The translations under genes and the position numbers were made by a program. The notes beneath the pieces are model-generated. The model made no database searches. It saw nothing but the letters and a program-made list of their open reading frames with translations, and had not been told where the DNA came from. DNA of 64,000 nt, taken from positions 37,650-101,649 of IMG/VR virus record IMGVR_UViG_3300024306_000021; one strand, written 5' to 3'. The DNA is from a virus. Below, piece after piece: positions 36,194 to 57,600 of this stretch; position 1 is the stretch's first letter, and every line of letters starts with the position of its first letter.

Positions 36194-37681
36194 TCACAAA
36201 GATAATTTTTTGAACTTATAATTCGCCATCAGTTCTTTGAAATCTGGATGATTCCAATCTGTACTCATGTCGATTGCCTTTTGAGGCAGTTTTAATTTTT
36301 CAGATATAGGTAAGTGTCTACCGACATCGCTTAAACTAAAACAGTTTACAGTGAATTTATTGTTAGGATTATCTCTAACTTCTAACCATTCATCCTGTAT
36401 CTGGGTAGCTTCTACTATGTTAAGATCGTCATGCTCCCATTTTAGACAGTCTTCACTAAGAGCTGTTTCTCTCCTAACATACCCGACATTCAAGTTTGCG
36501 CTGCGTTTTACATCAGAATCTTTCATCAATCTATAACCATATGATTGATAGTTTGAACTTATCGAAGATTTTGTATCGAACGAACCTATAGGCACTTCTA
36601 ATACAAACGGACTGAATGATTCGCCACTCCAATTCTCTGTCAACCATCTAATAGTATTGTCTAGGCTTTCTCTATTTTCTTTTGCTAACCCTATGATCAA
36701 ACTAATAGATCCTCGATACAATTTTGTACCATTTGAATGATAATAATTTTTTATATCTATCAACCCTTGTTTGATCTTTTCAGGATCCATTCCTTTGCCA
36801 ACTATCCTGGCAGCATCTCTGTTGAAACTTTCTATACCATAATACTGTCCTAGGAAATTCATCCTAAGCAGTTCTTCTCTATCTCTAGGACGAGATATCA
36901 ATAAATCTGCCCTGACGAATCCTGAGAACCAAGGTCGGAATGAAAGCTGTTCTACAACATCAGCGAACTTGCTGATCTTTTCAGTTCGGTCATTAAATGT
37001 TTCATCTGATACGAGATAGTTGGATACTCCGAATCTATCATAGCTGTCTTGTAATTGTATCCTAGCGTCTTCGGCATCTCTGCTATAGTCGCCCTTGACT
37101 CCTAAGATTGGAAAGTTACAGAAGTCACATTTAAATTTACAACCTCGAGCAAACTCTATAGTCAACCATTCGTTTGAGTCTATGAAATCTCTATCTTCAT
37201 ACTTGACCATGAGACTCTTCATTGGATATGCCGGATACTGTTTGTTAGCATCTATGAGCTTACACCCTTTTGATAACAAATCAAATCTCGGTCTAGGTCC
37301 GTTGCCTTTGTACCATCTAAGGAATTCTAACAGTGCTAGTTCACCGAAACCTTTTATATGTAAATCAAAAGAACTAGTATCAAACTGAGCAGCTACTTGT
37401 CCTCCTGAAATCAACAATACATCTGGGAAAGTAACTTTCAACCATTTGATATAGTTTTCAAATCTTTCAGACATGTTGCTGAAAAGAAAACTAAATCCTA
37501 GAAAGACAGTGTCTTTGTCGATCCGGGATTTTGCTAACTCTTGTAATTCATCTAACTCCCAAACTTCGCAGAAGTCGATAACTTCGATGTCCCAACCTTC
37601 TTCTCTGAGACAATGAGCTATACGATATGCGCCTAGCGTTCGGGTCGGTGAACCCAAAATATTAAAAATAAGACCTTTCAT
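36194..37681 (-). CDS. B12-binding-type radical SAM enzyme
   Basis: The 495-residue protein has an N-terminal cobalamin-binding-like Rossmann domain (SPTRTLGAYRIAHCLREEGW, FLGFSFLFSNM, LLISGGQVAA). The radical SAM cysteines are Cys181, Cys185 and Cys188 in ARGCKFKCDFC. ESFNRDAARIVGKGM and SLIIGLAKENRESLDNTI follow, as in B12-dependent methylases and oxidoreductases. The ATG at 37681 follows TATAAATA by exactly five bases without a ribosome site. It is set among tRNA genes, away from the other radical SAM genes. Substrate unknown. Confidence 0.9.
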   Translation of the reverse strand: MKGLIFNILGSPTRTLGAYRIAHCLREEGWDIEVIDFCEVWELDELQELAKSRIDKDTVFLGFSFLFSNMSERFENYIKWLKVTFPDVLLISGGQVAAQFDTSSFDLHIKGFGELALLEFLRWYKGNGPRPRFDLLSKGCKLIDANKQYPAYPMKSLMVKYEDRDFIDSNEWLTIEFARGCKFKCDFCNFPILGVKGDYSRDAEDARIQLQDSYDRFGVSNYLVSDETFNDRTEKISKFADVVEQLSFRPWFSGFVRADLLISRPRDREELLRMNFLGQYYGIESFNRDAARIVGKGMDPEKIKQGLIDIKNYYHSNGTKLYRGSISLIIGLAKENRESLDNTIRWLTENWSGESFSPFVLEVPIGSFDTKSSISSNYQSYGYRLMKDSDVKRSANLNVGYVRRETALSEDCLKWEHDDLNIVEATQIQDEWLEVRDNPNNKFTVNCFSLSDVGRHLPISEKLKLPQKAIDMSTDWNHPDFKELMANYKFKKLSL

Positions 37682-37686
37682 CAGTC

Positions 37687-37694
37687 TATTTATA
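37687..37694 (-). promoter_or_regulatory. Late promoter TATAAATA placed for leaderless start
   Basis: A perfect TATAAATA ends five bases before the ATG of the radical SAM gene, so transcription would begin at the start codon. Confidence 0.7.
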
Positions 37695-37696
37695 AG

Positions 37697-37774
37697 TGGT
37701 ACCCCTGCTCAGATTCGAACTGAGAGAACTTCTCCTTTTGAGAGAGATGACTTTACCAATTTGTCCACAGGGGC
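37697..37774 (-). tRNA. trnL(caa): tRNA-Leu(CAA)
   Basis: Anticodon arm TCTCT-CTCAAAA-GGAGA, acceptor GCCCCTG/CAGGGGT, encoded CCA. As with Leu(GAG), the variable region is short (about six bases). Confidence 0.9.
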
Positions 37775-39959: not shown

Positions 39960-39960
39960 G

Positions 39961-40653: not shown

Positions 40654-41211
40654 TTACAACACCCATCTACCAAATTGATCTAGTTGCTTAAAAAACAGCT
40701 CAACATCGAGACGCCAAGCAGTTTGTGTAAGACCTCTATAGTATATATCCTTTGTTTTGGAAAGTACACCACTTTTGGCTAATAAAGGACAAAAAATTTC
40801 ATGTACCAGTCTTTGGCTACCTGATTTGCTTTCATTGCTAGTGATGTAAAGATCTTTGTCACGACCGGCCCATTCTATACAGGCAGGTATGAAAAACTGT
40901 GCGGTGTAGTTTTGATGCCGTATGATTCCCCATTTGGTTCTCAAATGATGTAAAGGCAGATCATCAGATAGTACACAAGTCCTGGCGCAGATCCTATAAG
41001 CATTTTCTCCCATCTCAGGAAAAGAATGCGCAGCTACAGCACCAGCAGCTAGATCATTATAATATAAAATCCATGCGGCCCATCGTTCTTCTTTGCTCAA
41101 AGAATCGATCATGATCTGCTGATTGGAATTATTTTCAAAACCTTTGGCTGCTGCTCGCCTGTAAAAGTCCGAAAGATCTAGATCGGGGTTCCAGCGTATG
41201 AGTTTAAACAT
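40654..41211 (-). CDS. Unknown phage protein, possibly GNAT-like
   Basis: A 185-residue protein. Segments WAAWILYYNDLAAGAVAAHS and CARTCVLSDDLPLHHLRTKW recall the strand and acceptor region of GNAT acyltransferases, and YITSNESKSGSQRLVHEIF could be the cofactor-binding part. The match is by overall pattern only. It is the last gene of the run 43774-40654 and overlaps the kinase-fold-like gene by eight bases. Confidence 0.6.
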   Translation of the reverse strand: MFKLIRWNPDLDLSDFYRRAAAKGFENNSNQQIMIDSLSKEERWAAWILYYNDLAAGAVAAHSFPEMGENAYRICARTCVLSDDLPLHHLRTKWGIIRHQNYTAQFFIPACIEWAGRDKDLYITSNESKSGSQRLVHEIFCPLLAKSGVLSKTKDIYYRGLTQTAWRLDVELFFKQLDQFGRWVL

Positions 41212-41887
41212 GTTTTAATGCTTCCTCTACGAAATCTGCTGGATATTCTGATCTAAAGCTGTTCCAACACAGCCAATCGAAAGTGGTCCAGGGTTGCGGA
41301 TCGTTCCAGCTAATCGTGCTTTCAGCTAACACTTTCTTCATCTGTTCCTGTCTCGTAGAATAGATATGGCTTTCTACGTCGGCTATGCTGATATAAGGTT
41401 CGCTGTCGTGATAGGTAAAAAAGTAGTTGATGCTTTTCAACTGTCCGTCGACTAGGAAATAGCTGCTGGGATGCATGCTGTATTTGTGTAATTTTAGCTT
41501 CTTGTGTGCGTCTATGATTTCCAACATCTGTTCACGCCAATTGGGCAACACAGCATCGAAACTGCCAACGTCTAGCTTACGCTGCCAAAAGTCGTTGCCA
41601 TTGACACGCAGATAGATTTTTCTATACTTGTAATCGATGTCTAGTATTTCTGGCACCAGATGACTGTGCGAAGCTCGCATCAGCTGTAGATACTTTAGCT
41701 CACGTTGCCATTTTTCTTCCATCAATTCGGGATCCACTACCTGATTCTGCCCTTGGTGATAGGCAGTATCATTATAGTACCATTGTACGAATACAGTACC
41801 ATCTTCGCTCATAAGGCTGGTATAGATCAGATTGTTGCGCCAAGGTTCTTGCCCTGGCATCTGATTGTAATAGTATTCGTACTTCAT
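41204..41887 (-). CDS. Kinase-fold-like phage protein, copy A
   Basis: A 227-residue protein. The start at 41887 follows TTAGGAGAAAG and overlaps the upstream stop (ATGA). HPSSYFLVDGQLKSINYFF looks like a degenerate catalytic loop of the aminoglycoside/LPS-kinase fold (H-x-x-N then D-F), with the usual Asp and Asn changed. It is a distant paralogue of the protein at 45707-46384: both have 'M...W.RE......R......PE..DI' in the first third. Activity is doubtful; substrate unknown. Confidence 0.65.
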   Translation of the reverse strand: MKYEYYYNQMPGQEPWRNNLIYTSLMSEDGTVFVQWYYNDTAYHQGQNQVVDPELMEEKWQRELKYLQLMRASHSHLVPEILDIDYKYRKIYLRVNGNDFWQRKLDVGSFDAVLPNWREQMLEIIDAHKKLKLHKYSMHPSSYFLVDGQLKSINYFFTYHDSEPYISIADVESHIYSTRQEQMKKVLAESTISWNDPQPWTTFDWLCWNSFRSEYPADFVEEALKHV

Positions 41888-43158
41888 CTTTCTCCTAACC
41901 AAACGGCTCCAGTGGATTCTATAACTGCTGATAGTTCACTTACACGCATATCTATCTCTTCTTGGTCGTGTAGTATATTGGAAAAGATATAGTATCCTAA
42001 GATAGTGCTAGTGTGTATGATAGTCTTGCTGCTTATAAGAGGAAGTATCCAAGGCAATGTCGTAAATAGATCACCACTGATATACGTCTTTTCTATCTTC
42101 TTGATCTTATCCCAATTGGCTAACACTTCTCTGTTATGGTATTTTATTTCATCGGTTATCGCTACAGTATGATTGGGTTCTATCTTGAGATTTCTTTCTT
42201 TGGCATATTTTTTATAAAATTGTTCATAGTCATGCCCATCAAAATTTTCATATAGAAATTTTTTGAATTCTATGTTGTTTGGATTAATATCGTATATCAC
42301 AATCTTCTTGGCATGATTGTAGTAGGCCAAAGTTTCAGCCATAAGCCCATTAGCAGGTGCTATGACTAAGTCGCAGTCGTAGTCTTTGACGATATCATCC
42401 CAATAGAGGGCGTTGATATAATTAAACTTCATAGTTTCGTTGATCACAGATAGTGCTATCTGCTGTGCTGGATCTAGATAATCGCTGCTCTTGAGAGACT
42501 TTAGAGCTTCTGAAAAAGCCACTGTTTTTATATACGGATAGAGATATCCTCTAGTAGGCAGCTGTTCTATCAAGGGATTTTGTCTAATAGGTAATTTGAT
42601 CGTGTCAGAATATCTCCACGACTGATCAAAATTTACTACAGAGTAATCGTTCTCTAAGATATCTGACATCAGCTTGGTTCCAAACTTACCATGTCGTATC
42701 TCTGTACGATCTCCTAATGCTAACCATAAAGGAGCATGACCTTCATGTAAGTCATCTTCGCTTCTTATGAAGTTTTTACCTGTTTCGATATATGAATTAA
42801 AATCTAGATGTTTAACAGCTTTGGTGTTTATAATAAAACACTGTTCCTCTAGATAGGGAGTAAATTCACCTTGGTCCCAGATTAGATGTCCTACAAGTCC
42901 TACATAGTCAGGTATGGAGTGTATCTTTGTCCATAAGTGATCAAAATCTAATATGTAGTCGCCTGCTGTCTGTACAAATAGCCAATCGGCGTCATCTAGG
43001 TAGTTGTTGATTTGGTCATAGTTGTCAATGATATATGTAGGATATCTTCCGTTCACCAGATGCTCCTGACCCGATCTAGTGATCTGGAGCATCTTGTTGT
43101 TCAACCACTCGTCATCAGTACAGCATCGTACTGTGATGAAACTCACCTTTTTCGCCAT
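41884..43158 (-). CDS. Two-domain phage protein, methyltransferase-like second half
   Basis: A 424-residue protein. The first 200 residues include DADWLFVQTAGDYILDFDHLW and ALGDRTEIRHGKFGTKLM, resembling glycan-modifying GT-A-like phage proteins. The second half has DCDLVIAPANGLMAETLAYY then KKIVIYDINPNN, a Rossmann-type SAM-binding pattern. Neither assignment is firm. It overlaps the Asp/Asn-hydroxylase-like gene by 44 bases and has an AAAGGAA ribosome site. Confidence 0.65.
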   Translation of the reverse strand: MAKKVSFITVRCCTDDEWLNNKMLQITRSGQEHLVNGRYPTYIIDNYDQINNYLDDADWLFVQTAGDYILDFDHLWTKIHSIPDYVGLVGHLIWDQGEFTPYLEEQCFIINTKAVKHLDFNSYIETGKNFIRSEDDLHEGHAPLWLALGDRTEIRHGKFGTKLMSDILENDYSVVNFDQSWRYSDTIKLPIRQNPLIEQLPTRGYLYPYIKTVAFSEALKSLKSSDYLDPAQQIALSVINETMKFNYINALYWDDIVKDYDCDLVIAPANGLMAETLAYYNHAKKIVIYDINPNNIEFKKFLYENFDGHDYEQFYKKYAKERNLKIEPNHTVAITDEIKYHNREVLANWDKIKKIEKTYISGDLFTTLPWILPLISSKTIIHTSTILGYYIFSNILHDQEEIDMRVSELSAVIESTGAVWLGER

Positions 43159-43774
43159 GTTCCTTTAATGCTTTCTTCATCATAGATACCCATTCTGGTG
43201 TAGAATCATGATGGTGTACTATCAGATGATACCTATCTATTCCACTGTTATTGATCACTCGATGCTCGTAGCTAAGATTGACCGCATAAGCATCACCTGG
43301 TGAAAAGTCTAGACTACTGCCATCACCCCAATGCCATTCACACCCTTCCGGATTGTTTAGTGCTATGTTTACCATTTCCAATATGCTATGATCGGTGTCT
43401 TTATGTAGACCTATACTGCCACCGGCTTCTAGTAACATAAACCTCACCCGACCAAAACGTTTGCTAGGAAAGACCATCTTGAGCCAAGCCACAGTGACCG
43501 GACATAAATTGGCCCATGTAGTCCATTTCATATCATCACTGGCTGCGTTAGCTGTCTTGTAGCCGTAATCTTCCCAGCTATAGGGTTTGTCATCGCCTAG
43601 CCCGTGTATAGGTAAACTGTGCCAACCTTTATATTGATCACCATCGGCCCGGTATTCTATGAAGTGTTCGCGCAGTGCTTTGGCTTCACTTAGCATTTCT
43701 TCATGCGGAATTTTTAAGTCCAGTTTAAGACTTCTGGCAGTGCTTACCAAATAGTATCGACCATCGTGTATCAT
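43115..43774 (-). CDS. Aspartyl/asparaginyl beta-hydroxylase-like oxygenase
   Basis: A 219-residue protein with the 2OG-Fe(II) core: SIGLHKDTDHSILEMVNIAL (HxD-type metal pair), EWHWGDGSSLDFSPGDAYAV, SYEHRVIN (distal His) and RYHLIVHH (2OG Arg). This matches the Asp/Asn hydroxylase-like family. The start at 43774 is chosen because the late-type box GTTAAATA (43779-43786) ends four bases upstream; the longer frame crosses into the divergent gene's promoter. Substrate unknown. Confidence 0.83.
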   Translation of the reverse strand: MIHDGRYYLVSTARSLKLDLKIPHEEMLSEAKALREHFIEYRADGDQYKGWHSLPIHGLGDDKPYSWEDYGYKTANAASDDMKWTTWANLCPVTVAWLKMVFPSKRFGRVRFMLLEAGGSIGLHKDTDHSILEMVNIALNNPEGCEWHWGDGSSLDFSPGDAYAVNLSYEHRVINNSGIDRYHLIVHHHDSTPEWVSMMKKALKEHGEKGEFHHSTMLY

Positions 43775-43778
43775 CAGA

Positions 43779-43786
43779 TATTTAAC
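43779..43786 (-). promoter_or_regulatory. Late-type box GTTAAATA
   Basis: Minus-strand box four bases before the ATG at 43774; forms a divergent pair with the box at 43804-43811. Confidence 0.45.
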
Positions 43787-43803
43787 TCCGCTGGGAACCA
43801 CCC

Positions 43804-43811
43804 TATAAATA
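43804..43811 (+). promoter_or_regulatory. Late promoter TATAAATA placed for leaderless start
   Basis: A perfect TATAAATA ends exactly five bases before the ATG at 43817. No ribosome site lies between. Confidence 0.72.
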
Positions 43812-43816
43812 ATTTT

Positions 43817-44620
43817 ATGCTCAGAGGAATTAATAATCAACCTTATATAGATATAGAACCTTACCTAAATATGGTAGAGTTTGATCGGTTACAGCCCGAA
43901 ATATACAAAGGGTTTGCTTTGGCTAGGCATCATGCCAAAGAAGGCACATGGATGACTCCTGGATTTACTTTTGATAATATGAGTTATGTCCATAACTGGA
44001 AACCAATTTATCAAGCCATGAAAGACTTTCTCGATCTGCCTGACAGCGATCCTATCAAACAAGCAGGCTTAGAACTGATGCCCAAAGATTTCAAAAATTT
44101 TCAAGAACGTAATATATTCACTAGATATATCAAAATGGCAATGGGGGCATATGATCCATATATCTATTATTTCCTTTGGGAAGAAGGTTCATGGGATGAC
44201 AGAACAGCACCTAGAAAGCTAACACCCGAAGCACAATATTTTCCTAACGTAGTTAATTGGATAGAAAATATGGTAGGAGAAATTTTTGTTGATATAGGTC
44301 GTGTTATTTTCTTTCACTGTGAAGCAGATGGCATTCCATTTGAGCATAGAGATCTAGATGCTGCTAATGGCATCAATGTGATCAAGCCGCATAGGAATGA
44401 ATTTATACACATACGTCCTAATACTAAAAAAGCATTTTATCTTTGGGATCCAGAAACAAAAAACAAAACCTATCTCAATACAAGAGCAGCATGGTGGAAC
44501 GACACTGACTGGCACGGCGGTGAACGCATAATGGAACAGAGTTATGGTCTAAGAATAGATGGAAAATTTACCGACGAGTTCCGTAAGAAATTGGGCATAG
44601 ATCATATAGAGGCCTACTGA
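43817..44620 (+). CDS. 2OG-Fe(II) oxygenase-like protein
   Basis: A 267-residue protein whose second half has FFHCEADGIPFEHRDLDAAN (candidate HxD), HRNEFIHIRPN, NTRAAWWNDTDWHGGE (candidate distal His) and YGLRIDGKF. The order fits a double-stranded beta-helix oxygenase. The start at 43817 is set by the late promoter. It is the first of three plus-strand genes with only one or no bases between them (43817-45723), so they form a small operon. Confidence 0.72.
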   Translation: MLRGINNQPYIDIEPYLNMVEFDRLQPEIYKGFALARHHAKEGTWMTPGFTFDNMSYVHNWKPIYQAMKDFLDLPDSDPIKQAGLELMPKDFKNFQERNIFTRYIKMAMGAYDPYIYYFLWEEGSWDDRTAPRKLTPEAQYFPNVVNWIENMVGEIFVDIGRVIFFHCEADGIPFEHRDLDAANGINVIKPHRNEFIHIRPNTKKAFYLWDPETKNKTYLNTRAAWWNDTDWHGGERIMEQSYGLRIDGKFTDEFRKKLGIDHIEAY

Positions 44621-45171
44621 TGAAACTGTTAATGACTGGACATACTTCTAGCGTAGGACGAGCACTTTGTGAGTTTTATAAGGATCACGAGATAGTGGGT
44701 ATATCTCGTTCTAGTAATTTTGATCTTACCGATCCTGCCGATATTGAAAAAGTTATAGCATTATCTTTAGATTGCGATCACTTTATTAATCTGGCCAATG
44801 TGGGACATTCTCAATGCGACCTACTCTATGGAGTATATAGACTCTGGCAGGAAAATAATAAACCAGGAAAGATAATCAGCTTTGGCACACTGGCTACTGC
44901 TGCTCCTTTCAGTTTATTAAAAAGGATTCCTGTCGATATGTTCATGCTAGGACATAAATTAAGTCTAGAAAAAATACACGCAGAATTATCAATAGAAACT
45001 CCTTTCGGTCCGCAACCTCAGAGCGTATTGATACGGTTTGCTAATTACGGTATGAAAACCGACAAGAGATCTAATGAACCATACAGCACAGAAAAACAAA
45101 TGACTGAGATAGTAGATTTTGTTCTCAAGTCAAACACATATATTTCTAGCCTAGATTTTAGAGAGATTTAA
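44620..45171 (+). CDS. NAD(P)-binding SDR-like protein
   Basis: A 183-residue protein: MKLLMTGHTSSVGRALCEFY is a Rossmann TGxxxxxG loop, followed by FDLTDPADIEKV and FINLANVGHSQ. It is shorter than a full dehydrogenase/epimerase and the Tyr-x3-Lys pair is not obvious. It may act in nucleotide-sugar or small-molecule redox chemistry with the two flanking oxygenases. It shares its first base with the stop of the upstream gene. Confidence 0.75.
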   Translation: MKLLMTGHTSSVGRALCEFYKDHEIVGISRSSNFDLTDPADIEKVIALSLDCDHFINLANVGHSQCDLLYGVYRLWQENNKPGKIISFGTLATAAPFSLLKRIPVDMFMLGHKLSLEKIHAELSIETPFGPQPQSVLIRFANYGMKTDKRSNEPYSTEKQMTEIVDFVLKSNTYISSLDFREI

Positions 45172-49437: not shown

Positions 49438-50339
49438 GTTGTATGTTTAACTAATGTATCATAGAACATAGTAGAATTAAAAAATTCTAACTTAGAAATG
49501 CTATTGGCTTTTGAAAGTATATCTTTGTTCCATTTTTGTTTTATATTATGATTAGGCATATACCATACTAATGGATTCTTTTCATAATCTAAAAATGCTT
49601 CAGTGACGATTACCTTTCCTAATAGATATCTTCCTAATGATAATTTATTTAGATTGTCTATAGGTATATTCATAAAACTGTCGTTTTTCATATACCATTT
49701 GTAAAATTGATTTTCTATTAATTTTTCATAAGGTGCTTGAGTTTGAAAACTCATGACTGTTTCTGTACCTATACTATCTTGTACAGCTAGATCGTTTCCG
49801 TTATCATTATCTAATGCTATGTCTGCCCAGTCTTTGCCTATAGTTTCGTATCCTAGATACAGTGTTCCCCAGTTACTAAATTCTGTTGATAAAAATAATT
49901 TATGATAGGGTTTTATAAGAACTGAAGGCTTTATCTGACCGCAATAAAATTTTATCTGCGAATTCCAATCTATAATTAAATTATTTTCTATCTTATGTAT
50001 TAATTTATTAACAGTATCCCAATCTGGATTATCTTTATTTTCTACGAAACGATTGTGTAAATCGTTAAGCAACTCTCTACTAGGCCTGTTATCAATTTTG
50101 TCAAACCCCAATCGCAAATGGTAGTTGTTTAATTGATCTACATAATTTGCTAGTTCTTGATTAGCGAATTCAGAATCTATTGATAGATTTTCGACTAGAA
50201 TGTTTTGCCAATAATCTTGCCAGCAATGTTGTACAGGATTATCAAACAGATGGTAGTATAAATCTATTCCGTTGTCTAGTGTTATTCTCAGAGTGTTGTT
50301 ACCAAACCCATTACGGAATAAATTTTCTATCTCAGACAT
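49434..50339 (-). CDS. Unknown phage protein linked to radical SAM genes
   Basis: A 301-residue Asn- and Tyr-rich protein with no motif I recognise. The start at 50339 (MSEIENLFRNGFGNN) is chosen because its ATG overlaps the stop of the upstream radical SAM gene; the longer frame runs into that gene. DNGIDLYYHLFDNPVQHCWQ near the start and LYLGYETIGKDWADIALDND in the middle are distinctive. It sits between two radical SAM genes with four-base overlaps, so it may be their substrate-binding partner. Confidence 0.7.
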   Translation of the reverse strand: MSEIENLFRNGFGNNTLRITLDNGIDLYYHLFDNPVQHCWQDYWQNILVENLSIDSEFANQELANYVDQLNNYHLRLGFDKIDNRPSRELLNDLHNRFVENKDNPDWDTVNKLIHKIENNLIIDWNSQIKFYCGQIKPSVLIKPYHKLFLSTEFSNWGTLYLGYETIGKDWADIALDNDNGNDLAVQDSIGTETVMSFQTQAPYEKLIENQFYKWYMKNDSFMNIPIDNLNKLSLGRYLLGKVIVTEAFLDYEKNPLVWYMPNHNIKQKWNKDILSKANSISKLEFFNSTMFYDTLVKHTT

Positions 50340-51597
50340 AGGGTAGGAAATCCTCGTTAACTTCTTCAAATTTCTTTTGATTTCTACTAGTATCTAATCT
50401 ATGATTAAACTCCACACAGTCCTTCCACATATGACTTAGATCCTTAGCATACATATAACTTATTATTCCGTTGATCTGGTTAATTGTTAAATCTTTTAAA
50501 ATAGGATATTGCTGTACCATTTTAAAACCTGGTACTTTATCTCTCATATCCATCAATCTTTCTGCTGCTATTTTTTTCAACGGTTCAGGAAGTACCTGTG
50601 CTGATAAAAGATTAGGATGGTTGACAAAATTATTCCAATAAACAACTCCTAGATCGTCGAGTAAAAATTCTATCATCTGATCTATTTTCATCACGTTACC
50701 GACCTGTACTGCTGCTGAGCATACGATGCGTTTGATATTAGGCATCATCTGTATACGTTTAATATTATCAAGTACAAGTTGCCACTCGCTATTACCACGG
50801 ATATAATTGTAGACATCTCCGATGCCGTCCATGCTTATAGATACCATCACTGATTTAAAATTTGGCCAATAATCATATATGTTTCCGCTCTTGATTCCTA
50901 GAGTAGTACCGTTGGTAGCGTATTTCAAAGTGATATTTTTGCCGTAGGGTTTTAGCATTGACAGTATTTTATAGTGTTCAGGATCCATCAATGGTTCGCC
51001 GCCCGCAAACTCTACACGATCAAAGTAAGGTATATTCTTTTCAAAGCTGTTCCACCAGTTAGGATTGTCTTCGTAGAAGTTAAGATATGGTTTTCTTTTA
51101 AGGTTATTTTTTTCTATAAAATTGATCATAAAGTTGCCTTCTTTTTTATAGAATTCTTCTACTTGGTCCCAATCGTTCCAACTTGTACTATCCATAGGAT
51201 GGCACATGCGACATTTTAGATTACAGAGATTATTCAGCTTAATCTCCATGCTTGGAATCTTAAAAGGCATCTTGTGATCGTCGTCAAGCTCATCTAGAGC
51301 ATTAGGATATAACAAAGATCTTGTTTCAGGAATTCTTCCTGAAATATGTCTAAGCCTCATGCTTTCAACTCCGCTGTCTTCGTCTAACTTACATGAAGCA
51401 CATTCGCTAGGCCATTCTCCGTTTAAGACCTTTCTACGTATTTCACGCATCTTATCGTTGTTCCATATTTCTTCTAGAGAATTATCTTTGATATTTCCTA
51501 TAGGATGACTACGGCAACAGACCAATATAGAGCCGTCTGTACTAGTTGCTAATCCAGTAAATGGATGTAGACAAAATGTTTTACTTTGATTGTTCAA
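50332..51597 (-). CDS. Radical SAM protein with N-terminal twitch/SPASM-like domain
   Basis: A 421-residue protein in the same layout as 46410-47801. An auxiliary-cluster domain comes first (FCLHPFTGLATSTDG, LVCC, ECASC), then Cys125, Cys129 and Cys132 (LCNLKCRMC) and FAGGEPLMD. The likely start is a TTG at 51597 inside the stop of the QueC-like gene; an ATG 27 codons earlier would add residues coded in the overlap. It is coupled to the QueC-like enzyme upstream and the unknown protein downstream. Confidence 0.87.
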   Translation of the reverse strand: MNNQSKTFCLHPFTGLATSTDGSILVCCRSHPIGNIKDNSLEEIWNNDKMREIRRKVLNGEWPSECASCKLDEDSGVESMRLRHISGRIPETRSLLYPNALDELDDDHKMPFKIPSMEIKLNNLCNLKCRMCHPMDSTSWNDWDQVEEFYKKEGNFMINFIEKNNLKRKPYLNFYEDNPNWWNSFEKNIPYFDRVEFAGGEPLMDPEHYKILSMLKPYGKNITLKYATNGTTLGIKSGNIYDYWPNFKSVMVSISMDGIGDVYNYIRGNSEWQLVLDNIKRIQMMPNIKRIVCSAAVQVGNVMKIDQMIEFLLDDLGVVYWNNFVNHPNLLSAQVLPEPLKKIAAERLMDMRDKVPGFKMVQQYPILKDLTINQINGIISYMYAKDLSHMWKDCVEFNHRLDTSRNQKKFEEVNEDFLPYV

Positions 51598-52321
51598 TGG
51601 CCCACTCCCGTTCTTTACACCAGAAACACTTACCGCACGTTGGTACAGTATCTCCTGATATATAATTTTTATAATCAATTCCTTCGAACTCGCCTTCGCA
51701 GCTACGTGTGAGATCGAACAGATCCATAATACCTAATTTTCTATACTGTTTTACTACCCAAGATTTTTCTGTAAATCTAAAAGGATGTAATGCCCAACGA
51801 CCCATGTGTTCCATCATTTCTAGATGTTTATTTGATTCGTTGGGTTCTATATCTCTTTCCTTCATACCTCCTAGATCTATTCCTCTAGGATTACGGGTAA
51901 CTCCGTTGTAATAGGCATCAACATTTTCTTTATGGCATATGTATTCAGAGAACGCACGTATCTGAGCATTGTCGCCACTGACATATTTTCCATATTCATC
52001 TTTTACAATAGCACCTATGTTTCCATATTCTATATCCGGTGCTATAAAATTTACATGTCTTTTAGAAAACACAACATTAGGAAAACGCTTGTTTAATTCT
52101 ACATGTATGACTCTAGCATCGCTTTCTTGCCACGGTCTAGTTTTCCACATACGTACATGACTGATATGATGTACTATAGTTTGTGCTTTGTATTTTTCTA
52201 TAAGATCGCATACTAGATAGGATAATAGAGTGCTGTCTGCACCACCACTGATGCTAACAGCTATATTTTTCCAAGTTGGATCATAAGGTAATAAGACTCC
52301 GTCGATATTATGTATTATCAT
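51581..52321 (-). CDS. QueC-like PP-loop ATPase
   Basis: QueC makes 7-cyano-7-deazaguanine; relatives adenylate and amidate other acids. The 246-residue protein has the PP-loop SISGGADSTLL (residues 23-33) and a QueC-type zinc site: Cys208, Cys229, Cys232 and Cys235 (SCEGEF..., CGKCFWCKERE). The body (RWALHPFRFTEKSWVVKQYR) differs from standard QueC, and phage members near radical SAM genes may use other substrates. It overlaps the PLP-enzyme gene upstream by 14 bases. Confidence 0.8.
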   Translation of the reverse strand: MIIHNIDGVLLPYDPTWKNIAVSISGGADSTLLSYLVCDLIEKYKAQTIVHHISHVRMWKTRPWQESDARVIHVELNKRFPNVVFSKRHVNFIAPDIEYGNIGAIVKDEYGKYVSGDNAQIRAFSEYICHKENVDAYYNGVTRNPRGIDLGGMKERDIEPNESNKHLEMMEHMGRWALHPFRFTEKSWVVKQYRKLGIMDLFDLTRSCEGEFEGIDYKNYISGDTVPTCGKCFWCKEREWAIEQSK

Positions 52322-53201
52322 TATTGTTTTCCAAAAATCTTATCAGTGGGCTTACACCCACTGGTCGTCCATCTTTCAAAGCCAAGTGTATGGCCTTAGT
52401 GGGCTCTAAACCGAAGTCGTTACATACTCTTTGATAACGCTCTCCGTGTGTGTTCCAGAGATAGTCTGGCTGTAAGTTTTTTATGAAATGTGATCCTATC
52501 ATCACAGGTGCTTTATTGACCATAGCAAAGTCATTCATGATAGATATGCTATCTTGATTATCAAATCTATTCCAACGAAGTGCTACCCGGTTCCACCCGA
52601 GACCAAGACCTTTGCTAAGGCTGATGCCAACGGATCTAATAACTTTATTGCTAAAATCAAAATTAATATCACGGCAGCAACCGATCCAAGCGCCATCGAT
52701 GTGTACTTCAATTTTTTTAATTTTACACTCATGTAAAATTTCCTCCATGTCAAAGTGTGGCGCTCCTATTTGAGGAAACGGCATAGCTATGATCAACGGC
52801 AACCCTGGTATCAGACCTCCTACATCTTTGATATATGCTATATTCAATCTTTCATGGTATTTGTAATCTCCACGTAACACCTGTAACGCACCAGTCATAT
52901 AGATGTCGTCGATAAACTGTGTACAGCCAGAGCATATGTCTACTCTGGCAAACGTGTCCAACCCAGTCAAATGGTTTAATGAAGATTTCAAAAACCAATC
53001 AGTCGTTTCGTCTTTGAACTTTTGAAATATGGAATCACTAAAATCTCTATCTATACGTCCGCTCAACACTTCTAAAATAAGAGCGTCGATACGATTGTCA
53101 GACAACGGCTGTGGCCTATCTATTTCTAGATACCTTTCGTCATACTGCTCTGCTACTTTTAAGCGATCCATGAAACTATTTACATCATTAAAGTAGCACA
53201 T
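52308..53201 (-). CDS. PLP-dependent fold-type-I enzyme
   Basis: A 297-residue protein. VHIDGAWIGCC provides the Asp that contacts the pyridine N (Asp169) and GISLSKGLGLGWNRVALRW the Schiff-base Lys (Lys197). ICSGCTQFIDDIYM fits the cofactor phosphate loop. It resembles aminotransferases or decarboxylases but lacks a long C-terminal domain. The start at 53201 is chosen because the upstream 25 codons overlap the divergent gene. It starts the operon PLP enzyme, QueC-like, radical SAM, unknown, radical SAM, SGNH. Confidence 0.78.
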   Translation of the reverse strand: MCYFNDVNSFMDRLKVAEQYDERYLEIDRPQPLSDNRIDALILEVLSGRIDRDFSDSIFQKFKDETTDWFLKSSLNHLTGLDTFARVDICSGCTQFIDDIYMTGALQVLRGDYKYHERLNIAYIKDVGGLIPGLPLIIAMPFPQIGAPHFDMEEILHECKIKKIEVHIDGAWIGCCRDINFDFSNKVIRSVGISLSKGLGLGWNRVALRWNRFDNQDSISIMNDFAMVNKAPVMIGSHFIKNLQPDYLWNTHGERYQRVCNDFGLEPTKAIHLALKDGRPVGVSPLIRFLENNNDNT

Positions 53202-53206
53202 AAATA
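53199..53206 (+). promoter_or_regulatory. Late promoter CATAAATA
   Basis: Plus-strand box ending four bases before the ATG at 53211, with no ribosome site. It overlaps the start codon of the divergent PLP-enzyme gene. Confidence 0.55.
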
Positions 53207-53210
53207 TTTC

Positions 53211-53873
53211 ATGATTACCAAATATCCAAAAAACGTTGATATTGGACCTATAGTAGAGCAGGTCAACAATCTTCATTTTGAAAAAAGATTACAACTAAAC
53301 GAAACAACTGGAAATATCTTAAACGGACCATATACCGTCAAACAGGAATATAAAGGCACACCTTTGGGAGATCTATTAGAGTCATTAGACAACATAGGTG
53401 AAGCACGTCTACTCAAATTAAAATCGGCAGAAAGTTACACAGCTCATTGTGATCCAGACGACAGGATACATTTAGCTATCACTACTAACCTACACTGCTA
53501 TCTCATAGACCTTGACGAACAGAAACTGTATCACATACCTGTAGATGGTCAGTTATGGTATATGGACACCAGCCATACTCATGTGGCAGCAAACTACGGT
53601 GGCAGAGATCGTATACATCTAAACATACGTGTCCCCTTGCCAGCTGTAAAAGAACCTTATCATAGGTTAAGCATAGAACCTAATGATTTTGATTGGAAGC
53701 AAGAAGCATACACTGTGGTGATGAAATTTTTTAATAAAGCCATCAAAGAAAATATCATACAGGGGTTTGAGAAAGTAAATGAGCGAGAAGCATTAATAAA
53801 CTGCGATCTAAAAGTTTTAGATCCTTATGTAGCAGAATTGAGAGCAAAAGGTTTTAGAGTTTTTATATCATGA
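53211..53873 (+). CDS. Aspartyl/asparaginyl hydroxylase-like 2OG oxygenase
   Basis: A 220-residue protein with AESYTAHCDPDDRIHLAITT (HxD metal pair), WYMDTSHTHVAANYGGRDR (distal His) and RIHLNIRVPL (2OG Arg), the order of PF05118-like oxygenases. It overlaps the following radical SAM gene by four bases (ATGA), the only direct oxygenase-radical SAM coupling here, so the two may act in sequence on one substrate. Confidence 0.83.
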   Translation: MITKYPKNVDIGPIVEQVNNLHFEKRLQLNETTGNILNGPYTVKQEYKGTPLGDLLESLDNIGEARLLKLKSAESYTAHCDPDDRIHLAITTNLHCYLIDLDEQKLYHIPVDGQLWYMDTSHTHVAANYGGRDRIHLNIRVPLPAVKEPYHRLSIEPNDFDWKQEAYTVVMKFFNKAIKENIIQGFEKVNEREALINCDLKVLDPYVAELRAKGFRVFIS

Positions 53874-54901
53874 CATTTTATAAAGATACTGTTAAAAAAA
53901 TAGAATTTGAAGTATCCTCTTTCTGTAATGCTAGATGTCCTCTGTGTGTTAGAGAAATGAAAGGTGGCGATCATAGTTTCTTTGCCCAGAAAAATCTAGA
54001 TACTATATTTTTAGAAATCTGTCTTGGGGAAGAATTTGCTAAAAATCTAGAGCATATCTATATCGCAGGAGTGACAGGTGATCCAGCGATGAATCCTCAT
54101 CTACCTAACGTCATACGATGGTTTAGGAATGCCAACCCAGACGTGTTTATAGAAATTTCTTCTAACGGCGGAATACAGAAAGAAACATGGTGGTATGAGC
54201 TAGGAGAATTATTAGGACAGAATAGCAAGATGACTTTCGCTATAGATGGTATGGAAGATACTAATCATATCTATCGTAGAAATGTTAAATGGGCTGCTGT
54301 AATGAGGAACGCCAAATTTTATATAGATTCTGGAGCACCGGCGACGTGGCAGTTCATACCATTTAAGCATAATCAACATCAAGTAGAATACGCAGAAGCT
54401 TTATCTAAAGAGATGGGATTCAAAGAGTTCAAGACCAAGATAACTTATAGGAACGTAATGACTCCTCAGACAGAGATAGAATATGCCGACGATCCTAGAT
54501 ATACTCACGACTTTCCAATATTAGATTTTACTAATAAAGCAAAGATAGAAAAACATTTTGATGAGTTAGATATTTCATGCGCAGCCATCAACGATTCTAG
54601 TTGTTATATTTCTGCCGAAGGACTAGTATATCCGTGCTGTCATCTTGCCAGCCTGATGTTATTACCAGATGACTTTTTACCAGATGAATATGACTGGATT
54701 CCGAAAGCTAAAGAAAGTTTTTCTAGAGATGATATCAGTCTTTACAAGGCAGATATTTTTTCTATATTTGCTAGTAAAACATATATGATGTTAAAAGAAA
54801 ATTGGAACAAAACTATACAAGCAGGTAGGAATCCTATGTGCTCTTTGATTTGTGGAAAGAGCAAAACAGGATCGAGCATTTCACAAAAATTTTATTCGTA
54901 A
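53870..54901 (+). CDS. Radical SAM/SPASM protein, copy A
   Basis: A 343-residue protein with Cys19, Cys23 and Cys26 (SFCNARCPLC). C-terminal cysteines (SCYISAEGLVYPCCHLASL and CSLICG) are typical of a SPASM domain binding extra [4Fe-4S] clusters. It is a close relative of the protein at 54892-55977, which is convergent and overlaps it by ten bases, so they look like an inverted duplication. SPASM enzymes often modify peptides. Confidence 0.9.
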   Translation: MTFYKDTVKKIEFEVSSFCNARCPLCVREMKGGDHSFFAQKNLDTIFLEICLGEEFAKNLEHIYIAGVTGDPAMNPHLPNVIRWFRNANPDVFIEISSNGGIQKETWWYELGELLGQNSKMTFAIDGMEDTNHIYRRNVKWAAVMRNAKFYIDSGAPATWQFIPFKHNQHQVEYAEALSKEMGFKEFKTKITYRNVMTPQTEIEYADDPRYTHDFPILDFTNKAKIEKHFDELDISCAAINDSSCYISAEGLVYPCCHLASLMLLPDDFLPDEYDWIPKAKESFSRDDISLYKADIFSIFASKTYMMLKENWNKTIQAGRNPMCSLICGKSKTGSSISQKFYS

Positions 54902-55977
54902 GAATGATTTTCTAAAAACTGATCGTTTGGCTGTGAAAGTTTTACATTTTTAAACTTGCCACAGATCCTAGCACAAGTGATCAGTTTTTCCTCAGTCCAA
55001 TATTTGTTCCACACAGTTTGATAAGCATTAGACTCAACGACATTCTTTATTCCATTAAATGCATCGATAGCATCCGGACCACCGAGGTCGTTAACTAACT
55101 TGTTGTATTGTGATTTAATTTCGTCGTCAATGCTTTTGTCTACGAACTTGTTATCATAATAAGTTTCAGGAATAGAACTTAACCAGCAGCAGGGCATAAT
55201 CTTTTTGTGTGCGTCTATGTATATTTCTTTTATGTTCTGAACATGACAGGAAATCTCAGCTTCCTTAACCATGCTTTTATAGTTGTTTATGACTTCTTTG
55301 CTGATATAAGTTAACTTGCTGCTAGTAGGTGGATGAATGACATGAGTTGTATTTCCATTCTTGTCATAAACATCAAACTTGGGTTCGCCTACAAATCTAG
55401 AACTAGATTTTAAAACAAACTTTTTAAAGCCCAGTTCTTTTGCTCTAAGCTGGCATTCTTCTACTTGATGTTCGTTGTGTTTAAATTCTAAGAAAGTCCA
55501 TTCGGCATTCCCACCACGCTGTATAAATGCTGTGGCATTTTTAATAACGTTCTCGTATGTTGTTCCTACACGATGTAGACTATGAGTATCTTCTAGACCA
55601 TCGATGCCAAAGTGTACCATATGATCTACAGGTAGTGCTACCGCAAGATCCTGCCACCAGCTGGTCTTACGAGCACCTCCATTTGTGTGTACGCTTATAC
55701 CTATGTTAGGATTGACACTGACAGTGTAACGAACCATATCTATGAATTCATCATTGAGCATAGGATCGCCGAAGTTACCACAGAAATAGATACGCTTGAT
55801 TTGGAAGAGTACTTCGCTAGACATTATTTTCCTGTAGTCATCGAGAGTCCATTCACTGTTGCTCAGCAAAGGATTGGGCAAGCCTCCGTGGTTGTTCCTA
55901 GCACACATAGGACATCGTGCTTGACAGTTATTTGATATCTCTAGGTGTATCTGATACAGTTGATCGAACTTAAACAT
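54892..55977 (-). CDS. Radical SAM/SPASM protein, copy B
   Basis: A 361-residue relative of 53870-54901. Shared features are Cys18, Cys22 and Cys25 (NNCQARCPMC), IYFCGNFGDPMLN, MVHFGIDGLEDTHSLHR and a C-terminal SPASM region (CHVQNIKEIYIDAHKKIMPC, then CARICG). It overlaps the next upstream radical SAM gene by eight bases. Substrate unknown. Confidence 0.9.
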   Translation of the reverse strand: MFKFDQLYQIHLEISNNCQARCPMCARNNHGGLPNPLLSNSEWTLDDYRKIMSSEVLFQIKRIYFCGNFGDPMLNDEFIDMVRYTVSVNPNIGISVHTNGGARKTSWWQDLAVALPVDHMVHFGIDGLEDTHSLHRVGTTYENVIKNATAFIQRGGNAEWTFLEFKHNEHQVEECQLRAKELGFKKFVLKSSSRFVGEPKFDVYDKNGNTTHVIHPPTSSKLTYISKEVINNYKSMVKEAEISCHVQNIKEIYIDAHKKIMPCCWLSSIPETYYDNKFVDKSIDDEIKSQYNKLVNDLGGPDAIDAFNGIKNVVESNAYQTVWNKYWTEEKLITCARICGKFKNVKLSQPNDQFLENHSYE

Positions 55978-56941
55978 TTTTTATCTTTGGTATCTTGCTG
56001 TCAGCACTACTTACGCATCTTTCAGTAACACAGGGCATAGGTTTGGCAAACAATTGGAATGAGTCTAGGGTGCCAATCGGTTCTTCTCTACAGCTATAAC
56101 CTCGCCTGACTTCGTTACCTCTTATTACTAGACTTTGATATCCGCTATTACAGTCCCATCCTTTAAAACTATTAAATCCAAACGCATTGAATCTTTCTGC
56201 TTGATCAAATAGATAGTCTTGTCCACCATCATTTAATCTTATCTGATAAATGTTTTCATCAAATGCTTTCTGTGGGAATCCCTGCTTCATTATGTTGATC
56301 ATCTCTGGCGTGTATCCATCTACGATGGCACTAGCAGTTTCGTTGCTCTGTGGTTTAAGAGTAACATTGATTCCTCTCTTGTGTAAACGTTCGCAGCGTT
56401 CATAAAGTTCAAAAAACTGTTCTGGCACCATGACTTGATTTACAGTCACGTACACAAACTCATCCATCAGCTTCAGACACTTGTCTCCAAACTCTGATTC
56501 TTTGGCAAACTCAGCATGATAGCTGGCAGTAATACTTTTTCTTTGTAACATGCTCACAGCGTTAGCCCAAGACTTCCACCAGTTGATGCTAGGACTTAGA
56601 TTAGTAGTCATGTGTATGCTTTGATAGCTGCTTTCCATTTCGTCGAGGTGTCTAGTCAGTTCCAACAACTGTTTGAAAGTCGTAGGTTCTCCTCCGCTGA
56701 AACTCCAGTGGAATTCATTGAAACCATTCAGCCTTGCCTGTCTTTTGATTTCATCTACTGTTCTTTTATAAACATCGATGCTTTGGAAATCTAACTTATC
56801 ACTGTTAGCATATGGCCAACAGTAAGAACACTTGTAGTTACAAAAACGCCCTAGTATCCAACTGATGTTGAATAAAGGGCGATCTAACATATTGATTTGA
56901 CCGAAATGTTTTATGTTGTTGAATGGAATTTCTTTAATCAT
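55970..56941 (-). CDS. Radical SAM protein
   Basis: A 323-residue protein with Cys34, Cys38 and Cys41 (GRFCNYKCSYC) and WSFSGGEPTTFK. Later cysteines (GWDCNSGYQSLVIRGNEVRR, YSCREEP, CVTERC) suggest an auxiliary cluster. It is most like 48535-49437 in the window. Its start overlaps the stop of the HExxH protein gene by four bases. Confidence 0.9.
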   Translation of the reverse strand: MIKEIPFNNIKHFGQINMLDRPLFNISWILGRFCNYKCSYCWPYANSDKLDFQSIDVYKRTVDEIKRQARLNGFNEFHWSFSGGEPTTFKQLLELTRHLDEMESSYQSIHMTTNLSPSINWWKSWANAVSMLQRKSITASYHAEFAKESEFGDKCLKLMDEFVYVTVNQVMVPEQFFELYERCERLHKRGINVTLKPQSNETASAIVDGYTPEMINIMKQGFPQKAFDENIYQIRLNDGGQDYLFDQAERFNAFGFNSFKGWDCNSGYQSLVIRGNEVRRGYSCREEPIGTLDSFQLFAKPMPCVTERCVSSADSKIPKIKNV

Positions 56942-57600
56942 GGTCTATGACATATCTCTCCTCTGTCTATGGCGAGAATGTTAAGGTATACCATTTTAAT
57001 TACCTTATTAAAAATCTTAGTGTGTGAAAACAGGCTATAGTAGTCTGCTAGATAAGGATCAAACTTAACAGCTTCGGTAAGATGTTGTAACTGTCTTAAT
57101 GACTCTATTCCGTATTGCCTATAAAGATTGTGAGCTATGTTTACAGCGAAACAGAACATTTCATCTTTATCGCTGTAATAGATCTGTTCTTCAGTGCCGT
57201 TGTGTATACAGCTTTCTTGATAGTCTTTAAATTGAAATTGATATCTATGTATGCTCTCGTGACACAGAGCATCGGCTATTTCGTTGATCAACAGCCTGTG
57301 TAGTTTTTCTGTGAGATTGAATTTTTTCTTTTCGCTAGAACAGCAGACCTGTAGCTCTATAGATTTCTTATGAGTTTTTTCGTAGAATCCGTGTATGGTA
57401 AAACAATCCTTTAATCCTGACACTCTACGATAAGTTACTTTGATGCCTACCATATGGCGGCGCTTCATTCTGCGTATGATCTGTATCAGAGATTTAGCAC
57501 TGATCTTTTCTAGAGGAACATGATTTTCGAGATATCGTATCACCCAAAAGGGATCAATGATATCACTTTCTGTAAATAATGCGTCCTTTAGAGAGGTCAT
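56938..57600 (-). CDS. HExxH metallopeptidase-like protein
   Basis: A 220-residue protein. [14 protein letters not shown] holds a zinc HExxH (His114, Glu115, His118), followed 25 residues later by [14 protein letters not shown], whose Glu could be the third ligand. The N-terminal helices ([20 protein letters not shown]) are basic. This arrangement recalls SprT-like or small phage metallopeptidases. Its first 38 bases overlap the end of the IF-1 gene. It leads into three radical SAM-related genes, so peptide cleavage after modification is a thought, no more. Confidence 0.72.

Follow-up and report, generated by a model that had tools for sequence, protein, structure and literature searches.

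Gene content and layout of the locus

The genes described here lie in the window, by which we mean the whole 64,000-nucleotide stretch of viral DNA that was analyzed. Genes A to U and one additional gene are as follows.

2349..2669, minus: IscA-like A-type Fe-S carrier (PF01521, 69.2 bits; TIGR02011, 150.3 bits against a cut-off of 150.6)
A, 36194..37681, minus: B12-binding-like plus radical SAM protein (family f7), located in the tRNA cluster and apart from the main block
B, 40654..41211, minus: GNAT-like by eye
C, 41204..41902, minus: kinase-fold protein (profile A3 matches 4eqm, E 8.8e-6)
D, 41884..43158, minus: 424 aa, function unassigned
E, 43115..43840, minus: AspH-type 2OG oxygenase (PF05118, 47.3 bits; cut-off 22.6)
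F, 43766..44620, plus: 2OG-oxygenase-like (H194xD196..H250 in 10/10 family members)
G, 44620..45171, plus: SDR/epimerase-like (PF01370, 30.9 bits, over cut-off)
H, 45172..45723, plus: 2OG-oxygenase-like, family f2 (H108xD110, R127, and H166 in 24/24 members)
I, 45707..46384, minus: paralogue of C, kinase fold (family profile match to protein kinases)
J, 46410..47801, plus: N-terminal-twitch radical SAM (NF033640, 395.4 bits, cut-off 170; PF04055, 51.4 bits)
K, 47778..48587, minus: SGNH-like by eye (family f22, 4 members)
L, 48535..49437, minus: radical SAM, family shared with T (PF04055, 50.8 bits)
M, 49434..50369, minus: no family assigned (predicted model, pLDDT 75.9)
N, 50332..51678, minus: N-terminal-twitch/SPASM radical SAM (NF033640, 328.5 bits, cut-off 170; SPASM, 48.8 bits; PF04055, 34 bits)
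O, 51581..52321, minus: PP-loop ATPase-like, QueC-type Cys site (SGGADS and C208/C229/C232/C235 invariant, 8/8)
P, 52308..53276, minus: probable fold-type-I PLP protein (D194, A196, and K222 invariant, 11/11)
Q, 53211..53873, plus: AspH-type 2OG oxygenase, divergent from P (PF05118, 29.5 bits; cut-off 22.6)
R, 53870..54901, plus: radical SAM, family shared with S (PF04055 below cut-off; phrog_21308, E 8.7e-26)
S, 54892..55977, minus: radical SAM (PF04055, 36.1 bits)
T, 55970..56941, minus: radical SAM, relatives in Bdellovibrionota (PF04055, 47 bits)
U, 56938..57606, minus: HExxH protein (HESIH; SprT-like only at E 0.11)

Starts at 43774 (E), 43817 (F), 50339 (M), 51597 (N), and 53171 (P) are more likely than those of the called genes, and K may start at 48545. 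From B to U, called genes are spaced by at most 25 bases and form seven strand blocks with six strand switches; overlapping genes are present within same-strand runs. Joint expression of the whole set, which the preliminary description had read from short overlaps, is unsupported given these switches, and the seven blocks do not imply a single transcript. The window also contains 33 tRNA genes. A QueE gene is present in the same phage (phrog_2076, E 6.3e-54), and a short ORF at 58737-59489 is UDP-glucose-dehydrogenase-like (phrog_9148, E 4.2e-34; TIGR03026 below cut-off). This ORF and G are the candidates seen for nucleotide-sugar enzymes.

Enzyme families encoded by the island

A profile search of the phage's own record placed PF04055 at seven sites, six of them above the Pfam cut-off of 29.5 bits. 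The remaining one, R, scored 26.3 bits in the genome search and 24.5 bits in the protein search, but it is homologous to S, and the CxxxCxxC motif is kept in 89 of the 90 f0-family members of at least 280 aa, so that the seven radical SAM (rSAM) proteins originally proposed are borne out. The motif is also kept in families f1 (43/43) and f7 (11/11); in the latter, Cys181/185/188 of A are invariant. A matches PF04055 at 43 bits, and its B12-binding stretch matches PF02310 at 26.5 bits, below the cut-off of 32.1. Six rSAM genes (J, L, N, R, S, and T) rather than the five first counted lie in the 46-57 kb interval, with A apart at 36.2-37.7 kb. Enzymes of this superfamily require iron-sulfur clusters and SAM. 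This phage has two A-type Fe-S carriers, and the IscA-like one listed above could supply clusters to the rSAM enzymes.

The four oxygenases reported earlier were also recovered. E and Q exceed the PF05118 cut-off and have the full HxD...H plus distal Arg pattern, which in E (H146xD148..H193 and R203) is kept in 16/16 family members. F and H, for which no Pfam oxygenase match passed its cut-off, were assigned by an invariant HxD...H; a distal Arg263 is found in 9 of 10 members of the F family, and R127 of H sits between the His residues, a position less typical of 2OG oxygenases. In 139 of the 201 hits to P (repeats included), a divergent gene on its upstream side belongs to family f5.

Several other assignments made from the sequence held. 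G is the expected SDR protein, U carries the HExxH motif, and C and I are kinase-fold-like paralogues by their profile match. As active-type kinases with a catalytic-loop and a DFG Asp, C and I were rejected: none of their Asp residues reaches 80% conservation across the 16 members, and among charged, His, and Cys residues of C only R67, E68, K95, and K140 are kept in at least 80%. For K, the claimed SGNH motif is visible by eye but without a match to any Pfam or NCBIfam family. B likewise has no Pfam or NCBIfam family; it has a same-strand CI neighbour in 94 of 122 hits, a count in which loci from different seeds repeat some contigs. D has no Pfam match, one clustered relative (in record G003), two more picked by eye, and no detectable fusion of f3 and f6, the two accompanying families described below.

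The proposed PLP enzyme is probable: no Pfam PLP family matches P (one weak match, E 0.026, is to a phosphoesterase), but its three invariant residues form a pattern that we take to fit fold-type-I PLP enzymes. O is the PP-loop enzyme with a QueC-like Cys site that had been predicted, and its sole PHROG match is QueC-like (E 2.3e-6). As QueC itself it was rejected at PF06508 (14.7 bits, cut-off 22), despite the PP-loop motif and four-Cys site.

The QueC-like features of O, the QueE gene (the one preQ0 partner seen in this phage), and the 33 tRNA genes raise the possibility of nucleotide chemistry, in which the PP-loop, PLP, and rSAM enzymes would hypermodify a base of DNA or a nucleoside of tRNA. 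We regard this as improbable, and a nucleotide product finds little support. O falls below the QueC cut-off, and no QueC was found in the two records of this phage (G000 and G001). Thymidylate synthase (PF00303) was likewise not found in G000/G001, which are possibly partial; among eight records it is present in G004 and G009. To our knowledge, the number of rSAM proteins here far exceeds that in known base-modification pathways.

Conservation of the gene set in related phages

Three non-rSAM proteins were used as seeds in IMG/VR, giving 387 relatives of O, 397 of F, and 239 of P. The best 80 for each seed were kept for locus comparison, with loci extending ∼10 kb either side. Among the best 80 of the 387 O relatives, all 53 loci of at least 18 kb contain J-, N-, S-, and L-type rSAMs and an AspH-type oxygenase; the same loci contain H (50), CI (47), f6 (42), T (39), and P (37). 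When look-alike loci were removed from this set (best 80 of 387), the rSAM and AspH core was found in 45/45, and the order O-N-(M)-L was kept in 42 of these 45 distinct loci (at most two intervening genes allowed, strand ignored). Fisher tests were run on loci seeded by neither member of the tested pair. In the 55 distinct F-seeded loci (best 80 of 397), N and L occur together in 34, N only in 7, L only in none, and neither in 14 (p 2.7e-8).

The preliminary description had set one pathway against independent accessory genes, carried by relatives singly and shuffled with no co-occurrence. That arrangement was not what searches with O, F, and P returned, as the 53/53 O-seeded loci share the core. 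A gathering of unrelated accessory genes in a hypervariable region, with no pathway in common, would fit the strand switches, the 3-17 rSAM matches per related record, the lack of f3 and f6 here, and the several gene pairs without association (T with f6, p 1, and T with f3, p 0.96, in 18 distinct J-seeded loci). It would also fit the loci that lack P or O: P is found in 37/53 O-seeded loci (best 80 of 387) and O in 38/53 P-seeded loci (best 80 of 239), so neither is obligatory within reach. The constant core, the O-N-(M)-L order, and the association of N with L argue against this explanation, which we consider very unlikely.

The record richest in rSAM matches has 17. T4-type capsid (Gp23) and portal genes are present in five related records (G002, G004, G009, G013, and G015); neither was found in G000/G001, which may be incomplete. 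Judged by gene content, many large aquatic phages, including T4-like ones, share this conserved island.

Glycosyltransferase genes in the wider family

No glycosyltransferase was recognized by Pfam among A-U. In part of the loci, the T-S-J trio is accompanied by f3, a GT-A-fold protein, and f6, which is methyltransferase-like. The predicted model of f3 (pLDDT 93) gave 19 Foldseek matches at E ≤0.001, all glycosyltransferases (including ppGalNAc-T, WrtF, and RmlT; TM 0.37-0.43, rmsd >10), and SunS is also among its fold matches. Across 20 f3 sequences, D59 never varies and D57 almost never does. Within reach, f3 was found in 10/53 O-seeded, 5/53 P-seeded, and 2/62 F-seeded loci (best 80 of 387, 239, and 397, respectively). 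Searching the 169-kb record of this phage gave no match to f3 or f6, so a last transfer step would need an unrecognized or host enzyme. Other phage islands contain genes for a carbamoyltransferase, an FkbM methyltransferase, an M6P-isomerase/cytidylyltransferase, and a class III aminotransferase; two by-eye glycosyltransferase candidates in them (f18 and f45) match no Pfam family.

The peptide-glycosylating enzymes among the f3 fold matches, ppGalNAc-T and SunS, are also compatible with peptide or protein modification, in which rSAM/SPASM and 2OG enzymes would act on a phage protein (e.g. a fibre) or a ribosomal peptide and C and I would be kinase-fold substrate binders. SPASM/twitch rSAM families are best known as peptide maturases, and polytheonamide-type pathways combine rSAM/SPASM and 2OG modification of a ribosomal peptide. 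Many peptide-maturase SPASM/twitch models match weakly here, and the B12-rSAM plus AspH-type oxygenases make up a proteusin-like mix. For M, which has no Pfam match and no sequence relative in the PDB, most VIA-align rows carry cyclophilin titles (Z up to 10.3 among these), but the model is modest (pLDDT 75.9) and Foldseek returned nothing at E 0.001. Moreover, a search of 20 island proteins for a PqqD/RRE-type domain was negative at E 0.1, the 39780-40700 gap has no recognizable precursor, and the gaps in B-U are at most 25 bases. On balance, a peptide or protein substrate appears somewhat unlikely.

Bacterial relatives of J (43-48% identity) lie in loci like the island in J, S, T, and partly f6 and f3: nine loci with J contain S (9), T (8), f6 (5), and f3 (4), and eight of the nine are titled as Bdellovibrionota groups. 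The O-N-M-L row was not found in the Bdellovibrionota J-T-S loci, and a pattern search of the genome collection found no relative of O. Six bacterial genomes, close relatives among them, have 11 GT2 genes at most 12 kb from J, against 0.77 expected. They are present in 4/6 genomes, which argues against a nucleotide product; in G026 and G029, GT2 genes are absent out to 20 kb from J. One neighbourhood (L303) contains epimerase, Asn synthase, AT3+SGNH, and GT2 genes. By eye, N-twitch rSAM genes of Poseidonocella and Paenibacillus lie beside ACP/PKS-type genes, so the rSAM family alone does not mean a glycan.

Vibrio phage K566 (254,938-base genome) resembles the island in having a run of N-twitch rSAM genes, two scoring above the NF033640 cut-off and another three scoring 133-155 bits, with two GT8 genes and one weak GT4 match among them. 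Its best identity to J is 21.9%, and no relatives of O or P were seen in that stretch.

Discussion

From these results, the island probably makes or modifies an unusual molecule, a sugar being the likeliest candidate. The conserved, co-occurring gene set partly supports the earlier one-pathway proposal, which left the product class as peptide, sugar, or nucleotide; of these, a sugar or glycan is favoured by the wider family (the GT-A-fold gene in some loci, the bacterial GT2 genes, and the K566 GT8 genes). Our best explanation, offered tentatively, is that the island enzymes jointly make an unusual sugar or glycan unit for a host-surface glycan or the virion. The locus includes the row P-O-N-(M)-L (PLP, PP-loop, rSAM, (M), rSAM), from which an AspH-type oxygenase gene diverges, and the rSAM trio T, S, and J. 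The enzymes would act one after another on a single substrate: P would carry out amine chemistry, O ATP-driven activation, the rSAMs radical carbon chemistry, and the 2OG enzymes hydroxylation. The resulting sugar or glycan unit might then be placed on the surface glycan of the infected cell, blocking competing phages, or on the virion. A broader proposition is more doubtful: a virus-borne multi-step radical pathway, joining the rSAMs with 2OG, PLP, PP-loop, and kinase-fold proteins and having its rSAM core in common with Bdellovibrionota, would yield a glycan or glycopeptide of a new class during infection.

The preliminary description knew of no phage system with this set. Phages of the T4-like type that are rich in rSAM genes are already in print (PMC5332604, PMC7029224), but a description of the present module was not found in the available parts of these sources. 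The T4-like environmental viral genome TARA_ERS488813_N000010 has 12 rSAM genes and an A-type Fe-S carrier (PMC5332604); the phage studied here is similar, with its seven rSAMs, QueE, and two A-type carriers. The available part of that paper regards the rSAMs as Fe-S proteins that depend on a supply of clusters; it names no module, partner enzymes, or product (PMC5332604). Pelagimyophages carry rSAM cassettes in a host recognition cluster; the freshwater (Fonsibacter) genomes of that study are without rSAM genes (PMC7029224). By description the cassettes resemble the island in lying in a region of aquatic T4-like phages that is hypervariable, with glycosyltransferase/LPS genes there, and the accessible text gives the cassettes no function (PMC7029224).

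The island provides a concrete handle on how aquatic T4-like phages use their hypervariable region. Given the need of rSAMs for Fe-S clusters and SAM, a phage that keeps at least seven of them must gain much, and the 387 IMG/VR relatives of O with their conserved core point to a large reservoir of unexplored radical chemistry. With an rSAM core common to predatory Bdellovibrionota, two kinds of bacteria killers would share chemistry; if this is true, phages and these predators would use one chemistry to act on, or hide at, the surface of their prey.

Gene content of the radical SAM region

The window (bases 37,650-101,649 of a 101,649-base virus record) is contained in its entirety, at 99.96% identity, in another record, 169,155 bases long. 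Among the genes labeled A through U, a genome profile search found PF04055 at all seven places proposed to encode radical SAM (rSAM) enzymes (A, J, L, N, R, S, and T), six of them above the cut-off, and the number between 46 and 57 kb is six rather than the five counted in the preliminary description. The N-terminal-twitch family NF033640 includes J (395.4 bits) and N (328.5 bits; cut-off 170). All four predicted oxygenases (E, F, H, and Q) carry the invariant metal-binding residues, and two are backed by Pfam as well.

Other assignments held in part. In the putative QueC-like protein O the PP-loop is intact and four Cys residues are invariant, but the Pfam QueC score of O is 14.7 bits versus a cut-off of 22. 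A profile comparison agreed with a kinase fold for the paralogues C and I, but neither has an Asp retained in 80% of members, and the HExxH motif of U is there but its family match is weak. P, with an invariant Asp and Lys in its family alignment, is by its motifs what we take to be a short fold-type-I PLP protein; its best matches among PDB sequences, at E values of only 0.15-0.43, are to PLP enzymes. No Pfam family was found at E 0.1 for B, D, K, or M. The starts of E, F, M, N, and P were probably called too long, and 43774, 43817, 50339, 51597, and 53171, respectively, are likelier. Joint expression had been read from short gene overlaps; because B through U fall into seven strand blocks, a single transcript is not implied.

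Conservation of gene sets in related loci

Using J as a query returned 39 loci. When 602 ORFs from 19 regions were clustered, two large rSAM families emerged, f0 (92 members, of J, N, R, and S type) and f1 (44 members, of L and T type), along with recurring partners. Whether relatives carry these genes singly and shuffled was tested with the non-rSAM seeds O, F, and P, using the best 80 relatives of each. The main counts cover loci of at least 18 kb (53/80 O-seeded, 62/80 F-seeded, and 24/39 J-seeded) and include near-identical contigs; for P, 53 loci were used among 73 new ones, with seven refound loci counted under their first seed. Each family assignment follows the top match among 25 custom-built HMMs (E 1e-5, frames of at least 80 residues), whose training set overlaps some of the loci scored. 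Look-alikes were dropped for pair tests and order counts.

Number of seeded loci with each family (CI, C/I type; AspH, E/Q type; f3, GT-A-fold; f6, methyltransferase-like)
O-seeded, n = 53, from the best 80 of 387: J, N, S, L, and AspH 53 each; H 50; CI 47; f6 42; T 39; P 37; F 37; R 18; A 16; B 15; M 14; f3 10
F-seeded, n = 62, from the best 80 of 397: CI 62; B 58; H 54; AspH 52; HMPTM-like rSAM 50; A 47; N 47; L 39; J 37; P 37; O 31; S 23; T 4; f6 3; f3 2
P-seeded, n = 53, from the best 80 of 239: J, N, L, and AspH 53 each; H 51; S 50; CI 46; F 41; O 38; T 38; f6 38; f3 5

When identical layouts were removed, J, N, S, L, and AspH were present in 45/45 O-seeded loci. The order O-N-(M)-L was kept in 42 of these 45 (any strand, at most two intervening genes), and P-O-N-(M)-L lay on a single strand in 26 (at most one intervening gene). 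Among 55 distinct F-seeded loci, which were selected without reference to N or L, N was linked with L (p = 2.7e-8) and O with N (p = 0.00097); the link of O with N was also found in 18 distinct J-seeded loci (p = 0.00021). The latter 18 gave no association of T with f6 (p = 1), T with f3 (p = 0.96), or O with T (p = 0.29), and the distinct F-seeded loci gave none of the HMPTM-like rSAM with N (p = 0.5). On these counts and tests the genes form at least two modules, often side by side. One joins the P-O-N-(M)-L row and Q to the T-S-J trio, and the other comprises B-C-...-F-H-I-E. Independent shuffling of the first of these modules was rejected.

rSAM proteins with an HMPTM zinc ribbon (Tes/MJ0619-like; for example L012:5285-6334) gave 159 matches over the loci, repeats included; they are frequent in the F module, and this phage has no member. 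Tandem fatty-acid-desaturase-like genes (f13, assigned by eye) adjoin the rSAM core at L046:17319-18808.

Predicted folds of f3 and M

Near the T-S-J trio, f6 (best Pfam E 0.011, below cut-off) is present in many loci and f3 in some. The next recognized gene is f6 downstream of T in 63/141 cases and f3 upstream of T in 32/141, counts that are pooled over all loci and seeds, repeats included, so that some contigs count more than once. This phage has no match to f3 or f6, and D as a fusion of the two was unsupported (hhalign probabilities 0.1-3.7%). Most loci seeded by O, P, or F also lack f3 within reach. These absences, in this phage and in the relatives, count against a glycan reading.

The f3 model (pLDDT 93.0) was made from a sequence of a saltmarsh-type locus, L035, rather than of this phage. 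At E ≤0.001, 19/19 Foldseek matches were glycosyltransferases (ppGalNAc-T, WrtF, and RmlT), with TM-scores of 0.37-0.43 and rmsd >10. VIA-align returned a GT-A/nucleotidyltransferase fold, the best match being a GalNAc transferase (Z 11.3, rmsd 2.9, 134 residues), and nucleotidyltransferases (IspD and MobA) nearly equaled glycosyltransferases at Z about 10-11. In 20 sequences D59 is invariant and D57 is retained in at least 90%. The model firmly predicts a GT-A/nucleotidyltransferase fold; because nucleotidyltransferases score nearly as high, we only infer sugar transfer as its reaction. Two families guessed by eye to be glycosyltransferases, f18 and f45, had no Pfam match.

Among PDB sequences, no convincing relative was found for f3, F, M, or O, and the M model had no Foldseek match at 0.001. 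For M, VIA-align ranked a mitochondrial ribosome chain first (Z 10.7); cyclophilin titles appear on most of 50 rows (best Z 10.3), and the other rows come from ribosome, spliceosome, radial-spoke, and similar entries, their chains named by entry title only. A cyclophilin-like fold may be considered a weak lead for M.

Carrier phages and other genes

The T4-type capsid protein PF07068 was found in 5/19 records and the T4 portal PF07230 in the identical five (5/17); two of these five, G004 and G013, apparently represent the same phage. Neither was seen in the phage studied here, whose records may be incomplete. This phage has two A-type Fe-S carriers, and at least one is present in 6/19 records; proteins of this kind would assist in loading rSAM enzymes. 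The records behind 25/39 J loci have 3 to 17 rSAM matches each, and one frame may hold two matches. None of these record counts is dereplicated (G000 and G001 are this one phage, and G004 and G013 apparently another). A record with 17 matches also has carbamoyltransferase and cytidylyltransferase/mannose-6-phosphate-isomerase genes (L062:6534-8003 and L062:9530-10285).

Other genes of this phage are as follows.
Window 2349-2669: A-type Fe-S carrier, IscA-like
G000:C1:11208-11510: second A-type Fe-S carrier
Window 22651-23190: AhpC/peroxiredoxin-like, below model cut-offs
Window 28696-39891, minus strand: 33 tRNA genes that together serve all 20 amino acids; gene A lies within the cluster
Window 33709-34578: kinase and nucleotidyltransferase-like fusion (phrog_10255, E 2e-55), its C part NMN-adenylyltransferase-like

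Relatives in annotated phages and bacteria

Three records of annotated phages have a J relative (Vibrio phages K566 and K567 and marine virus AG-345-D19), the two Vibrio phages being the named ones in which a related island was seen, and annotated phages yielded no relatives of T or f3. In the genome collection, 86 pattern-matched stretches contained 0 relatives of O, a pattern that distant ones could escape, and J-type rSAM proteins gave 254 matches, from which 76 loci were kept. Nine of these (L302-L307, L322, L326, and L362), every one from metagenome-assembled genomes, are titled as Bdellovibrionota groups in eight cases and as "bacterium" in L306. They contain S-type proteins in nine (only about 250 bits in L306), T in eight (weak in L307), f6 in five, f3 in four, and a P relative in three, some of the loci being short. 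The J tree is midpoint-rooted only, and such rooting does not resolve the direction of transfer between phage and Bdellovibrionota.

NF033640 was above cut-off in 14/14 carrier genomes, themselves selected by the J search, versus 0/14 controls. In six such genomes, 11 GT2 genes were observed within 12 kb of J versus 0.77 expected from density, none of the 11 being in G026 or G029. The corresponding Poisson p (6.9e-10) assumes more independence than these genomes offer, as several of them are closely related in the J tree. The L303 neighborhood has epimerase, Asn synthase, AT3+SGNH, and GT2 genes. In Poseidonocella and Paenibacillus, NF033640-type rSAM genes are close to ACP/PKS-like genes (by eye), so the roles of N-twitch rSAMs extend beyond a single type of pathway.

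Discussion

T4-like phages rich in rSAM genes are already known: in the parts of the sources available, TARA_ERS488813_N000010 has 12 rSAM genes and an A-type carrier (PMC5332604), and pelagimyophages have rSAM cassettes (PMC7029224). The word "radical" is absent from the available part of PMC12619734. Within the literature searched, whose scope excluded most subscription papers, no paper was recognized as describing the module. Nor did these searches turn up a description of its partner genes, of f3, or of the related loci in Bdellovibrionota and in phage K566.

A biosynthetic pathway had been proposed for this region. A nucleotide product would fit the QueE gene of this phage, its eighth rSAM gene (L056:3976-4821, left of the window in record G001), but is the less likely reading because neither QueC nor a thymidylate-synthase family was found in G000 or G001. 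The main rival is a peptide product. Only two genes of this phage point to sugars, the SDR gene G and a short UDP-glucose-dehydrogenase-like ORF (58737-59489), and the sugar link comes from the wider family. Judged from these sequences, the island most likely makes or tailors an unusual sugar or glycan, which would be destined for the host surface or the virion.
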